From Thermoproteota archaeon (GTDB lineage Archaea > Korarchaeota > Korarchaeia > B14-G2): DNA of 11,110 nucleotides. A program made the position numbers and the translations under genes. The notes under the pieces were generated by a model. It had not been told where the DNA came from and made no database searches. It saw only the letters and a list, made by a program, of their open reading frames with translations. Positions 6,293 through 10,377 of the stretch are shown here, piece after piece. The first letter of the stretch is position 1, and each line of letters starts with the position of its first letter. The stretch covers positions 1 to 11,110 of the forward strand of contig QMWA01000037.1 in assembly GCA_003661385.1 (NCBI GenBank), read 5' to 3'.

Positions 6293-7045
6293 TTGAAGAT
6301 AGAGGTTAAGGAGCTCAGCGCGTGGTATGGTAGCCATCAGGTCCTTAGGAGTGTGAGCATGGGGGTAAGAGAGAACATGATAACAGCTATCATAGGGCCT
6401 AGCGGCTGCGGCAAGACCACCCTCCTCAGGTGCTTGAACAGAATGCATGAGCTGGTAGACGGCGCCAGAGTGGAGGGGGAGGTCCTCCTCGACGGGGAGA
6501 ACATCTACGACCCCAGCGTGGACCCAGTGGAGGTCAGGAGGAGGATCGGGATGGTGTTCCAGAAGCCCAACCCCTTCCCACACATGAGCATATTCGACAA
6601 CGTGGCCATAGGCCTCAAGCTCGCTGGAGTCAGGGACAAGAGGAAGCTCAGGGAGGTTGTTGAAGACTGCCTTAAGAAGGCTGCCCTATGGGATGAGGTC
6701 AAGGACAAGCTCGACCAGCCTGGTGGAAGGCTCTCAGGAGGACAGCAGCAGAGGCTGTGCATAGCTAGAGCCCTGGCGACAAGCCCTGAAGTTCTGCTCT
6801 TCGACGAGCCCACTTCAGCCCTAGACCCAATCTCAGCCATGAGAATCGAGAACCTCATGCTAAGCCTCAAAAGGGAGTACACGATAGTGATTGTGACACA
6901 CAACATCCAGCAGGCTGCTAGGGTAAGCGACTACACAGCCTTCCTCTACAGGGGAGTGCTGGTAGAGTATGGTGAGACAGCCGTCATGTTTAAGACCCCC
7001 AGGCACAAGCTTACAGAGGAGTACCTGACTGGCAGGTTTGGGTGA
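6293..7045 (+). CDS. pstB: Phosphate ABC transporter ATP-binding protein PstB
   Basis: Cytosolic ATPase that powers phosphate import through PstC and PstA. All ABC elements are present in the 250 residues: Walker A GPSGCGKT (35-42), Q-loop Q90 in [10 protein letters not shown], signature LSGGQQQRL (147-155), Walker B VLLFDEP (167-173), D-loop SALD (175-178) and the switch histidine in VTHN (H203). The [10 protein letters not shown] string and the length of about 250 are typical of PstB rather than other ABC ATPases. The TTG start follows the pstA stop by one base and is preceded by the purine-rich GAGGGGG (6282-6288), a plausible ribosome-binding site inside pstA. The 3' end overlaps the phoU start by eight bases. 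Confidence is very high. Confidence 0.97.
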
Positions 7046-7724
7046 TAAGACGAAGAGCAGAGGCTTTGTCAGGAGAGTTGCCCTGGATAGGGGGCTGAAC
7101 AAGGTGAAGGAGATGGTCCTAGAGCTCAGTGGGATAGCTAAGGAGGCTGTCAGGCTCTCCATCGAGGCCCTGAAGGAGAAGAGCAGAGAGAAGATCGAGA
7201 AGGTGTATGAGCTTGAGAAGAGGAGTGACGTGCTGAACATGGACATAGAAGACGAGTGCCTCACCCTGGCTGCGCTCCAGCAGCCTGTTGCAAGAGACCT
7301 GAGGTTCATAGCATCGATGATGAGGATATCTAACAACTACGAGAGGATATGTGACCTAGCTCAGAAGATAGCTTACATAGCTGAGAAGACCATCGATAAA
7401 CCTCTGCTCAAGCCCCTGATAGACGTGCCGAGAATGGGCAAGCTGGTCATCGAGATGCTTGAGATAAACGAGGAGAGCATAAGGACAGGAGACACCTCGA
7501 TGCTTGAGATGGAGCTTAAGGCTAGAGACGACGAGATAGACCTCCTCTACAGCCAGACTTACAACGAGCTCGTAGGCTACATGGTCAGGATACCACACAG
7601 GATAGATGACGCCATAGACCTCCTGTTCGTCGCAAAGCACCTCGAGAGGATGGGAGACCTGGTAGCTAAGTCAGCTGCTAGACTCGTGTACATAGAGGAA
7701 GGCAGGAGAGTCTGGATAAAGTAG
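7038..7724 (+). CDS. phoU: PhoU-family phosphate uptake regulator
   Basis: PhoU proteins are helical-bundle, metal-binding proteins that restrain Pst transport and, in bacteria, feed phosphate status to a sensor kinase. This 228-residue protein shows the expected two-fold repeat. The first half carries an acidic E/D series ([16 protein letters not shown], 58-73) and [13 protein letters not shown] (96-108). The second has ARDDEID (162-168) and [11 protein letters not shown] (199-209). The paired ER..D motifs are the classic metal-cluster ligands. It is predicted all-helical, with no membrane segment or DNA-binding domain. The TTG at 7038 overlaps the pstB 3' end by eight bases, implying coupled translation. 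A later start around 7080 cannot be excluded. As a last gene of the pst operon it is in the canonical place. No PhoR/PhoB-type two-component genes are present here, so signalling probably differs from the bacterial scheme. Confidence 0.94.
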
Positions 7725-7725
7725 C

Positions 7726-7735
7726 AGTTTAAAGG
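7726..7735 (+). promoter_or_regulatory. TATA-like box for the roadblock gene
   Basis: AGTTTAAAGG begins just after the phoU stop and is centred about 32 bases upstream of the TTG start at 7763. A transcript would begin near 7756. This suggests the roadblock gene can be expressed separately from the pst operon, although read-through is also possible because no terminator is visible between them. Confidence 0.45.
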
Positions 7736-7762: not shown

Positions 7763-8122
7763 TTGAGCTCTGTAGTGGATGCGATGAGAAGGTTCATCAG
7801 CACATCGCCTGGAGTGCGAGGTGTAGTCCTAGCTACCTGGGATGGGCTCGAGTACGCTAGCGTAGGCGAGGTGGCTGACGCACCCAGCATATCAGCTGCC
7901 TCCTCAGTGGTCCTATCCACTGCAAGGAGGGCTTCTGAGATAACTGGCGCAGGCGAGCCCATCGATGCAGCTGTCTTCTGCGAAGGCGGAACCCTCTACT
8001 TCAGGGTGGTTGGAGACGAGTTCATCCTCTGCATATTCGGTGACATAGTGGTGAGCGATGTCTTCAGAGCTGAGGTCAGGCTGCTCGCTAGGAGGCTTGA
8101 GAGGGCCCTGGGGAAGAGCTAG
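7763..8122 (+). CDS. Roadblock/LC7-domain protein
   Basis: Small single-domain protein of the roadblock/LC7 superfamily, whose members dimerise and in prokaryotes often regulate small GTPases such as MglA or act in motility, polarity or signalling. The 119 residues follow the family pattern: an N-terminal helix, then GVRGVVLATWDGLEYASV (17-34) as the first two strands, a central helix rich in small residues (SISAASSVVLSTARRA, 42-57), then strands around 67-95 including GGTLYFRVVGDEFILC, and a C-terminal helix (100-117). There is no GTPase gene in the window to pair with it. The TTG start is chosen for its distance from the box at 7726-7735; GTG 7775 and ATG 7784 are in-frame alternatives. It ends in a TAG sharing CTAG with the stop of the convergent TPR gene. 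Fold assignment is good; cellular role is unknown. Confidence 0.83.
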   Translation: MSSVVDAMRRFISTSPGVRGVVLATWDGLEYASVGEVADAPSISAASSVVLSTARRASEITGAGEPIDAAVFCEGGTLYFRVVGDEFILCIFGDIVVSDVFRAEVRLLARRLERALGKS

Positions 8123-8991
8123 ACGCCCACATACCTCCTCCACATGGCTTCAAGCTCACGCCTGTCATCTTCATCAAGCTCAGCTGAGAGAGCCTCCTCT
8201 AGCAGGCTTCTCAGCTCACCTGCTCTACCCAGCTCAGCTAAGACCCTGGCGAGCCCCAGGTAGGCCCTGGATGACGCCTGGGATCCTGGTGAGAGCCTTA
8301 TCGTGGACTTGTAGAAGCGCTCTGCATCCTCCAGCAGGCCTATCCTGTGGAGTATGGTGGCCATCTGGAGGCTGACCTCAGCTGCCCTATCGTACACCCC
8401 ACCCTTCAGCAGGGCACCTAAGGCCTCCTCCAGGTTCCATAGGGCCTCCTCGTCCTCACCCATGCTCACTAGGACTCGCGCTATGTCCATGTACCTGCAG
8501 GCAAGCTCCTCCTCGCTCAGGGTGTAGAAGCCCTCTGCTAGAGACCTCTTGTACTCTCTCAGGGCTTCATCTAGCATGCCAGCTGACTCGAGGGCAGCAC
8601 CTATCCTAGAGTAGTCTTCTGGAGGGAGCCCTACAAGCCTGCCTCTCTGGCTTACTGCCATTGCATAGTAGTCTACAGCCTCCTCTTCCTCTCCAGCTTG
8701 AGCTAAGCTGGCTGCAAGCTCCTGCTGCAAGAGCCACGCGTCCTCCTCAGCCTCCTCTAAGGCCTCCTTGAGCACCTCCACAGCTAGGTAGGCGTAGCCC
8801 CTCTCCCTGAGCGCTCTAGCTACAGTAGCCCAGAGAGCTGGGAGCTCGCTTGAGAGGCCGCTGCTCCTGTAGCCTTCAGCCACAGCCCTAGCGTAAGCTA
8901 AGGCTTCCTCAGCCCCCTTGGACTCCAGGAGGTCTGTGAACTCGTACTCGAATGACGCTAGCGCCTTCGGGCTGCTGGCATGCTCCCCCAA
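8119..8991 (-). CDS. TPR-repeat protein
   Basis: Predicted cytosolic scaffold made almost wholly of tetratricopeptide repeats, which bind other proteins. In 290 residues I see about six helix-turn-helix units. The clearest are at 52-82 (ALWATVARALRERGYAYLAV), 86-116, 126-153 (IGAALESAGMLDEALREYKR), 166-198, 204-234 (ATILHRIGLLEDAERFYKS) and 240-270 (AYLGLARVLAELGRAGELR). They show the usual spacing of small residues and A/G at positions 8, 20 and 27. The protein is strongly acidic, with no signal peptide, membrane segment or catalytic domain. The TTG start follows AGGGGTT by a few bases and lies about 34 bases from the AT-rich box at 9020-9028. It is convergent with the roadblock gene, overlapping its stop, and divergent from the V4R gene. 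The family is clear; partners are unknown, and the neighbours are the first ones to consider. Confidence 0.87.
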   Translation of the reverse strand: MGEHASSPKALASFEYEFTDLLESKGAEEALAYARAVAEGYRSSGLSSELPALWATVARALRERGYAYLAVEVLKEALEEAEEDAWLLQQELAASLAQAGEEEEAVDYYAMAVSQRGRLVGLPPEDYSRIGAALESAGMLDEALREYKRSLAEGFYTLSEEELACRYMDIARVLVSMGEDEEALWNLEEALGALLKGGVYDRAAEVSLQMATILHRIGLLEDAERFYKSTIRLSPGSQASSRAYLGLARVLAELGRAGELRSLLEEALSAELDEDDRRELEAMWRRYVGV

Positions 8992-9019
8992 CAGAACCCC
9001 TAGCAGTAGGGTAGATGAG

Positions 9020-9028
9020 AAATTTAAG
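9020..9028. promoter_or_regulatory. AT-rich box midway between divergent TPR and V4R genes
   Basis: AAATTTAAG is the only AT-rich stretch in the 63-base gap between the starts at 8991 (-) and 9055 (+). Its centre is about 31-33 bases from each start, so a shared or overlapping promoter would give leaders of only a few bases on both sides. On the + strand the preceding GATGAG is purine-rich and BRE-like. The role is inferred from position. Confidence 0.5.
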
Positions 9029-9054
9029 CTTGACCACCTAGGGCTGGGGTCGGT

Positions 9055-9579
9055 GTGAGCCGGGTAGACAAGCTTAAGGCAAGCCTAATAACCAAAGCCC
9101 TCAGGGTAGCCATAACAGAGGACGTGGTTCCAGCTAGAGTCCTCAGAGCACTCTACCCAATGCTCTACGAGACCCTACCCCTCAAAGAGGAGGAGAAAGA
9201 GGGGTACCTGTATGCCTTAGGCTACCAGATGGGCAGGAAGATGGAGGAGGAGTTTGAGCACATAGTCTGGAAGATGAGCAAGCCCCCACTCACCTTCAAG
9301 GACCTCATGTACTTCTTCGTGAAGGGGGCTACAGCAGTCTCAGCTGACAAAATAGAGCTCGAGGAGGTAAGGGAGGATGCAGCTGTGGTGGTCAACAGGA
9401 CATGCGCCTACTGCTGGGGGCTTGAGGGGAAGTACAGCAAGCCAGTCTGCTTCTACTACTCTGGGGCAATAGCTGGAGCAACTGAAGCAGCATTAGGAGG
9501 CACAGCTGTAGTTGAGGAAGTAGACTGCAAGGCTAAGGGTAATGAGGTATGCAGGTTCAAGGTGAGGTATAAGCCCTGA
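9055..9579 (+). CDS. V4R (4-vinyl reductase-like) domain protein
   Basis: Small soluble protein with a C-terminal V4R domain, a ligand- or metal-binding fold also found in bacterial BchJ and in sensory regulators such as XylR/PoxR, and related to the TRAPP subunit Bet3. The 174 residues begin with a helical region (about 1-90). The V4R part (about 95-172) contains YYSGAIAGATEAALGG (134-149) and the diagnostic ending VEEVDCKAKGNEVCRFKV (153-170). Five cysteines lie in the second half (C117 and C120 as CAYC, C132, C158, C166), consistent with a zinc or redox site. No DNA-binding or catalytic domain is fused to it. The GTG start follows GGGGT by four bases. The stop lies nine bases before the phosphoesterase start, so the two are probably one operon. 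The domain call is good; ligand and role are unknown. Confidence 0.85.
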   Translation: MSRVDKLKASLITKALRVAITEDVVPARVLRALYPMLYETLPLKEEEKEGYLYALGYQMGRKMEEEFEHIVWKMSKPPLTFKDLMYFFVKGATAVSADKIELEEVREDAAVVVNRTCAYCWGLEGKYSKPVCFYYSGAIAGATEAALGGTAVVEEVDCKAKGNEVCRFKVRYKP

Positions 9580-9588
9580 GGGGTTAGC

Positions 9589-10377
9589 TTGCTCACCTCG
9601 CTGCTACCAGCCTTAAGCAAGCTGCACTTAGCAGCTGCGCTAGCTCTCCTAGCTGGGCTTCTCGCATACAACACACCAGCTCTCCTGGCTCCAGCAGCCA
9701 GCTGGGCCAACCCCCTCAGAGAGGCAGAAGCCTACGAGCTTAAGCCTCCAGTAGCCCTCGTCTCAGACCTACATGTTGGCGGAGACTTCATACCTGAGCT
9801 AAAGCAGGCACTAGAGGAAATCAAGCCCAGTGCAGTCATCGTGGTAGGGGACCTAGTAGACGAGGAAAGCTACTTCTATGGCAAGCTCAACTGCAGCTTA
9901 GAGGCTCTGCTCTCTGAGGCTGGCCTCAGAGGCTACGAGGTCTACTGGGTCACCAGCATGCTCCACGACCCAGAGATGCAGCCTGGCTCCTATGGCAAGC
10001 TCCATGTGGTAGGGCGTACTGGCATATTCAAGGTGGGCAGCACAGTCATAGTAGCCCACCACGGTGAGACAGCATGTAAAGTAGGTCCGCTAGCGCTCGC
10101 CATCTCCTACACGCTAGGGAAGCTGGGACTAGAGCTCCCGCTGGAGAAGCTCTGGAGGAAGCTCTGCAAAGTCCCAGACAGCTGGTGGGTCATATTCGGC
10201 CACAGCCACCTAGCTGGAATAGACCCCAGCTGGAGGGTAGCTAACACAGGCTCATGGAGGAAGCTGCCCAGGATAATACCGCACTCAGAGAAGACAGCAA
10301 TCATGGTAGACGACAGTGGAGTGAAGCTGATCGCCTTCAGCCCAGAAGCACCCAGGCCGAAAGCCCTCCCACCATGA
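9589..10377 (+). CDS. Membrane-anchored calcineurin-like metallophosphoesterase, atypical motif III
   Basis: Predicted metal-dependent phosphoesterase with one N-terminal membrane segment (about residues 13-38, rich in Ala and Leu), so it is either a tethered enzyme or carries a signal anchor. The motifs run in order: SDLHVGG (D60, H62), GDLVDEE (D88), AHHGE (H157 or H158) and GHSH (H205, H207), followed by NTGSW (219-223). Where the superfamily has GNHD/E, this protein reads SMLHDP (123-128): the histidine is kept (H126) but the metal-binding Asn is replaced by Leu. The fold and most metal ligands are present, so activity may persist with altered metal use, but this is uncertain. The 262 residues are normal in length. 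The TTG start is preceded by GAGGGG (9578-9583) at the end of the V4R gene, indicating coupling. The substrate cannot be read from the sequence; nucleotide, lipid or protein phosphates are all possible. Confidence 0.8.
   Translation: MLTSLLPALSKLHLAAALALLAGLLAYNTPALLAPAASWANPLREAEAYELKPPVALVSDLHVGGDFIPELKQALEEIKPSAVIVVGDLVDEESYFYGKLNCSLEALLSEAGLRGYEVYWVTSMLHDPEMQPGSYGKLHVVGRTGIFKVGSTVIVAHHGETACKVGPLALAISYTLGKLGLELPLEKLWRKLCKVPDSWWVIFGHSHLAGIDPSWRVANTGSWRKLPRIIPHSEKTAIMVDDSGVKLIAFSPEAPRPKALPP

Follow-up and report, generated by a model that had tools for sequence, protein, structure and literature searches.

The window analysed here, i.e. the whole stretch of 11,110 nucleotides (nt), represents contig C37 (QMWA01000037.1) of the 1.74-Mb draft genome of a Thermoproteota archaeon placed in the phylum Korarchaeota (GCA_003661385.1; 206 contigs, 91% complete). 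This genome (G000) is the sole member of its family in a phylum comparison set of 29 genomes, i.e. 28 besides itself. Four genes of the window encode a roadblock/LC7 protein, a TPR-repeat protein, a V4R protein and a calcineurin-like metallophosphoesterase (Table 1), which the original prediction, made from the DNA letters alone, had regarded as a candidate signalling module. Their open reading frames (ORFs), coordinates and strands were confirmed. The roadblock and TPR genes converge with an overlap of 4 nt (8119-8122), the divergent TPR and V4R genes are separated by a gap of 63 nt (8992-9054) holding AAATTTAAGC, and the start of the phosphoesterase gene follows the V4R stop codon after 9 nt. 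The roadblock and V4R genes lie on the same strand at a distance of 932 nt, with the reversed TPR gene in between. In other archaea, members of these two families were repeatedly found as immediate neighbours, and this pairing is the main subject of the analysis.

Table 1. Features of the window around the roadblock and V4R genes (aa, amino acids).
Feature	Position	Strand	Remarks
phoU	7038-7724	+	ends a run of pst genes, all on the same strand as the roadblock gene
TTTAAA box	7728-7733	+	candidate TATA element, read from the sequence; 29 nt before the roadblock start
Roadblock/LC7 gene	7763-8122	+	TTG start; 119 aa; 38 nt past phoU
TPR-repeat gene	8119-8991	-	290 aa
AAATTTAAGC	9020-9029		candidate TATA element, read from the sequence; 26-35 nt before the V4R start
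V4R gene	9055-9579	+	GTG start; 174 aa
Calcineurin-like metallophosphoesterase gene	9589-10377	+	TTG start; 262 aa

The predicted domain identities hold for all four proteins, which scored above the curated Pfam cut-offs (roadblock PF03259, 29.4 bits, cut-off 23; V4R PF02830, 46 bits, cut-off 31; phosphoesterase PF00149, 29.3 bits, cut-off 21.5; TPR protein, several TPR families). The AlphaFold2 model of the roadblock protein (predicted local distance difference test, pLDDT, 90) resembles Asgard roadblocks, MglB and p14/MP1, with template modelling scores of ~0.89 to the MK-D1 roadblock (9jue) and ~0.88 to MglB (6hjm). The V4R model, calculated from 36 sequences (pLDDT 88), matched mouse Bet3 (1wc9; Z 17.5, root-mean-square deviation 2.4 over 149 residues), as expected from the Bet3-like fold that had been assigned to this protein. 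The aromatic sensor domains of the bacterial proteins MopR and PoxR matched at an equal level (MopR Z 17.5), and the Thorarchaeota TRAPPC3 was also among the matches. The fold therefore supports ligand binding and a relationship to Bet3 without deciding between a sensor and a tether. Both G-x3-G glycine pairs, which are common to helices 2 and 5 of Bet3 and V4R proteins (PMC2253512), are retained in the window V4R (G56/G60 in helix 45-74; G137/G141 in helix 133-147), which furthermore possesses cysteines at positions 117, 120, 132, 158 and 166.

The absence of a GTPase noted in the original prediction applies to the window, where no small GTPase gene was found and the roadblock gene consequently does not adjoin one, and not to the genome. 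The latter encodes at least one Arf/MglA-like GTPase (G000:C58:3132-3800; 222 aa; Arf 39.5 bits), which is unlinked to a roadblock or V4R gene; its best matches among solved structures were Arl8 and Arl3-type proteins, and MglA was matched too. The V4R gene of the window is the only one detected in the genome, and three roadblock genes are present in all, the two others on contigs C72 and C102. A scan of genome contigs with the window roadblock protein as single query gave no matches.

Roadblock and V4R genes are common across the genomes of the phylum, in which loci were annotated with profiles built from phylum members. Same-strand roadblock-V4R pairs with a spacing of 10-22 nt occur at four loci of three relatives (G002:C27, G003:C17, G004:C4 and G002:C55). 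At G002:C55 (L094:5042-8892), in a genome of the same class as the window genome, a Ras/Arf GTPase gene (PF00025 55.3 bits; PF00071 54.2 bits) completes a roadblock-V4R-GTPase operon. Additionally, V4R and GTPase genes adjoin each other in G004:C4 and, in a looser arrangement, in G015:C36, and roadblock and GTPase genes are neighbours in many genomes of the phylum. Assuming one gene per kb (~1,740 genes in the window genome), 0.13 immediate roadblock-V4R neighbours would be expected by chance in the phylum, compared to the four observed. Three of these four pairs look like one ancestral pair, so that a fair count is two or more events (P ~0.008), and the four pairs probably represent two independent origins. 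For the window genome, with three roadblock genes and one V4R gene, the probability that the V4R gene lies within two genes of a roadblock gene by chance is ~0.7%.

The operon at G002:C55 is followed by a gene resembling that of a membrane pyrophosphatase and is preceded by ABC transporter genes and a PhoU_div gene (PF01865 71.5 bits), the latter 725 nt upstream. Between the PhoU_div and roadblock genes, fragments similar to the start of a downstream antiporter-like protein (L094:4486-4784) possibly represent a decayed copy. Convergent pairs of two roadblock genes, some of which overlap at their ends, were observed in G007:C211, G011:C9, G012:C103 and G013:C98.

Outside the phylum, a V4R-motif scan of GTDB genomes retained 80 loci. 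Since their ranking was based on similarity to a V4R linked to roadblock, V4Rs of this kind may be over-represented in the sample. A further roadblock scan covered 19 genomes of this set. Low-scoring matches to GTPase profiles (L177, L202, L186 and L243) were left out of the counts. A roadblock gene directly adjoins a V4R gene in Bathyarchaeota (L201), in Methanocellales (L224) and at one Methanomicrobiales locus (L230), and at several more loci, mostly from Methanomicrobiales with a common layout, the two genes are 1.3-3.7 kb apart. Both DHVE2 genomes possess roadblock-V4R pairs (L260/L261, detected in the roadblock scan), and in both a V4R gene also adjoins a GTPase gene (L183, L197). In Helarchaeota, a V4R gene is followed by a Rab/Ras-like GTPase gene (L226:132-1238; PF00071 177.8 bits) beside ribosomal protein genes. 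Another Helarchaeota locus (L268/L326; L326:4463-7074, G031:C220) carries a tandem array of roadblock, V4R-like, roadblock, V4R-like and roadblock genes, with overlaps of 4 nt within each pair; the V4R-like member that was tested scores in Pfam as MetOD1, a V4R relative. Furthermore, an ORF of 303 aa (L317:1105-2016, G031:C228) fuses a V4R domain (residues 18-174, 51.9 bits) to a roadblock domain (residues 183-303).

Among the Methanomicrobiales loci, seven (L171, L173, L175, L194, L203, L222 and L225) encode a large V4R protein and, ~2.6-3.7 kb further downstream in the same orientation, carry two roadblock-type genes in tandem; the intervening stretch of L173 contains genes for a response regulator and a MinD-type ATPase. 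A GTPase-like gene is located ~1.2 kb from the fusion ORF, in L329. In two Asgard loci (L320, L321), a C-terminal V4R domain is preceded by an N-terminus that appears longin-like by eye, reminiscent of the longin-TRAPPC3 fusion that PMC10933270 describes.

The TPR and phosphoesterase genes did not share this recurrence. Searches of the 28 remaining genomes of the phylum (E thresholds of 0.001 and 1e-6; 0.001 for the TPR protein) revealed no relative of either protein, and the exact four-gene group was seen only in the window genome. Phosphoesterase relatives are present in 49/397 sampled Thermoproteota genomes, in contexts unlike that of the window. Thus, the expected conservation of the four-gene neighbourhood was not found and a four-gene module is unsupported, whereas the idea that roadblock and V4R belong to each other gains from the roadblock-V4R pairs in three relatives and in other archaea, one with a GTPase gene and one in the form of a fusion. 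Among the four window genes, those for the V4R protein and the phosphoesterase look like the only operon-like unit, in line with the coupling proposed for them. The convergent ends and the divergent gap are no demonstration of co-transcription.

Eukaryotic GTPase control uses both Bet3-type folds (TRAPP) and roadblock-type folds (Ragulator). To our knowledge, only the roadblock fold has been tied to GTPases in prokaryotes, by gene neighbourhood and biochemistry, and we know of no endomembranes in the archaea concerned. Roadblock-V4R operons and a fusion, one operon with a GTPase gene, would connect the two folds in archaea in a direct way that is open to testing, and the window adds a deep-branching case from a genome with a single detected V4R gene.

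Roadblock proteins are established as GTPase regulators and as neighbours of MglA-type genes (PMC4316618). The window roadblock has the fold of MglB, the GTPase-activating partner of the small GTPase MglA, and many relatives share the roadblock-GTPase adjacency of such systems, including the Streptomyces conservons. In contrast to these, the window has a V4R gene instead of a GTPase gene, and V4R does not belong to the MglA-MglB and conservon sets as described. Asgard GTPase, roadblock and TRAPPC3 proteins, which have the same folds as the proteins considered here and include structures among the matches, were studied in PMC10933270. According to this source, the GTPase genes of MK-D1 generally share no operon with roadblock, longin or TRAPPC3 genes; in several of the archaea compared here, roadblock-V4R operons, in one case with a GTPase gene, do occur, and a roadblock-V4R fusion is not described in the available part of that work. 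V4R was proposed as the ancestor of Bet3 in 2008, and most prokaryotic V4R proteins known so far are sensors tied to transcription and signalling (PMC2253512); that account describes no pairing with roadblock. Likewise, the relevant passages of the open-access literature, to which the search was directed, yielded no report of roadblock-V4R operons or fusions.

With a probability of about 0.42, the roadblock and V4R proteins of the window are interpreted as a divergent, rearranged example of a recurrent archaeal regulatory pairing that acts on a small GTPase, complemented by locus-specific extras. The V4R protein would form a Bet3-like dimer whose cavity accommodates a hydrophobic ligand or lipid, and the roadblock protein would form an MglB-like dimer contacting a small Arf/MglA-like GTPase, most likely the one encoded on C58. 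The ligand or membrane state sensed by V4R might be relayed via a putative physical contact with the roadblock protein to the GTPase. A scaffold role is conceivable for the TPR protein, and the phosphoesterase, which would be encoded on the V4R transcript, may be a membrane-bound output that acts on phospho-lipids or releases phosphate. What was observed are the genes, their domains, the two folds, the recurrent adjacency of roadblock and V4R genes and of V4R and GTPase genes, and one fusion elsewhere. It is plausible from these comparisons that roadblock and V4R proteins act jointly, a view that other genomes support and that for the window locus has only indirect support.

Several observations weigh against this interpretation. 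A roadblock-V4R pair in the sense of adjacency or fusion does not exist at the window locus, and, as judged from the sequence, the two genes are separate transcription units, each with a candidate TATA-like box. In phylogenetic trees, the window roadblock and V4R proteins fall outside the paired clades of the relatives, on very long terminal branches of unsure placement (2.2 and 2.7 changes per site), so that descent from such a pair is at best possible. Most roadblock and V4R genes of the phylum are not neighbours. In a sample of 29 Thermoproteota roadblock loci, which was drawn without regard to V4R and from which the search centre G029 was omitted because it had been chosen for having a pair, a V4R-superfamily gene directly adjoined the roadblock gene in two cases, neither above the Pfam V4R cut-off. 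Despite the repeated pairs elsewhere, the pairing is therefore recurrent and not the rule. The roadblock half of the Helarchaeota fusion reached 20.2 bits and thus remained under the Pfam cut-off, although it scored 1e-17 with the phylum profile. Finally, the roadblock proteins encoded on C72 and C102 are competing partners for the C58 GTPase.

The separate units with their own TATA-like boxes, the position of both proteins outside the paired clades and the lack of TPR and phosphoesterase relatives in the phylum would also fit a chance neighbourhood. In that case, which is quite conceivable at somewhat less than even odds, the roadblock protein would serve the GTPase of the genome alone, the TPR protein would be unrelated, and the V4R protein and the phosphoesterase would form a private two-gene operon for the sensing of a hydrophobic molecule, with a phosphorylated lipid or metabolite as the target. 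The low probability that the single V4R gene of the genome would lie this close to a roadblock gene by chance and the repeated pairing of the two families elsewhere argue against it. A distinctly unlikely explanation derives from the pst genes and phoU, which lie directly upstream on the same strand: the roadblock gene would be the last gene of a pst-phoU operon, and its neighbours, including the phosphoesterase gene, would belong to a phosphate-scavenging regulon. A PhoU-like gene precedes the roadblock-V4R-GTPase operon at G002:C55 too; however, it is 725 nt away, belongs to a different family (PhoU_div) and lies beside TOBE-type ABC genes. Moreover, the TTTAAA box is situated between phoU and the roadblock gene, and a PhoU relative was present at none of the other loci fetched with roadblock or V4R genes.

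The interpretation as a rearranged regulatory pairing could be extended to a widespread archaeal module of roadblock, Bet3-like V4R and small GTPase, inside and outside Asgard archaea, in which a Bet3-type ligand-binder would control a GTPase via a roadblock dimer. This module would predate the eukaryotic use of these folds in GTPase control as its possible source, and the window would hold a rearranged copy; such a generalization appears rather doubtful. Highly improbable is a proto-TRAPP vesicle-tethering unit in which V4R would be both a tether like Bet3 and the exchange factor of the GTPase, and roadblock a second subunit. The match of the V4R model to Bet3/TRAPPC3 (Z up to 17.5) and the V4R-Rab-like GTPase gene pair of the Helarchaeota would agree with such a unit, but bacterial aromatic sensors match equally, so that the fold is no pointer to tethering, and no evidence for membrane trafficking was obtained.

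As predicted, the first ~30 residues of the phosphoesterase are hydrophobic (Kyte-Doolittle peak 1.83 over residues 8-26). The protein shows the motif order of the calcineurin-like metallophosphoesterases of PF00149/PF12850 (DxH, GDxxD, HD, HHG, GHxH), with DLH60, GDLVD87, MLHD124, AHHGE156, GHSH204 and TGSW220, and differs from them by its N-terminal hydrophobic segment and at the GNH[D/E] position. The Asn of GNH[D/E] is a metal ligand in this family. This position reads MLHD in the window protein, which therefore lacks the metal-binding Asn, and mostly SSHDP among 20 aligned relatives, i.e. the Asn is replaced by Leu in the former and by Ser in most of the latter. The phosphoesterase is a member of an archaeal subfamily in which SSHDP typically takes the place of GNH[D/E]. 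The relatives in L332, L333 and L336 share a conserved setting between a membrane-protein gene and an apparent ribosomal protein S2 gene (S2 recognised by eye), and a Memo-type gene is also adjacent. A conserved V4R-phosphoesterase operon was rejected, since the neighbour in the sole candidate (L330, Bathyarchaeota) failed in Pfam and did not resemble the window V4R in BLASTP. A link between phosphoesterase and roadblock genes was set aside as too weak, as it concerned one relative (L335) with a roadblock gene ~1.6 kb away.

A loose parallel to the window TPR gene was observed in the two DHVE2 genomes (L183:1464-5485 and L197), in which the GTPase gene overlaps the V4R gene and a TPR-protein gene lies nearby on the opposite strand. 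Beside the genes discussed above, the window encodes a Radical SAM/SPASM protein of the family TIGR04084 (3360-4430; 446.9 bits, cut-off 225).

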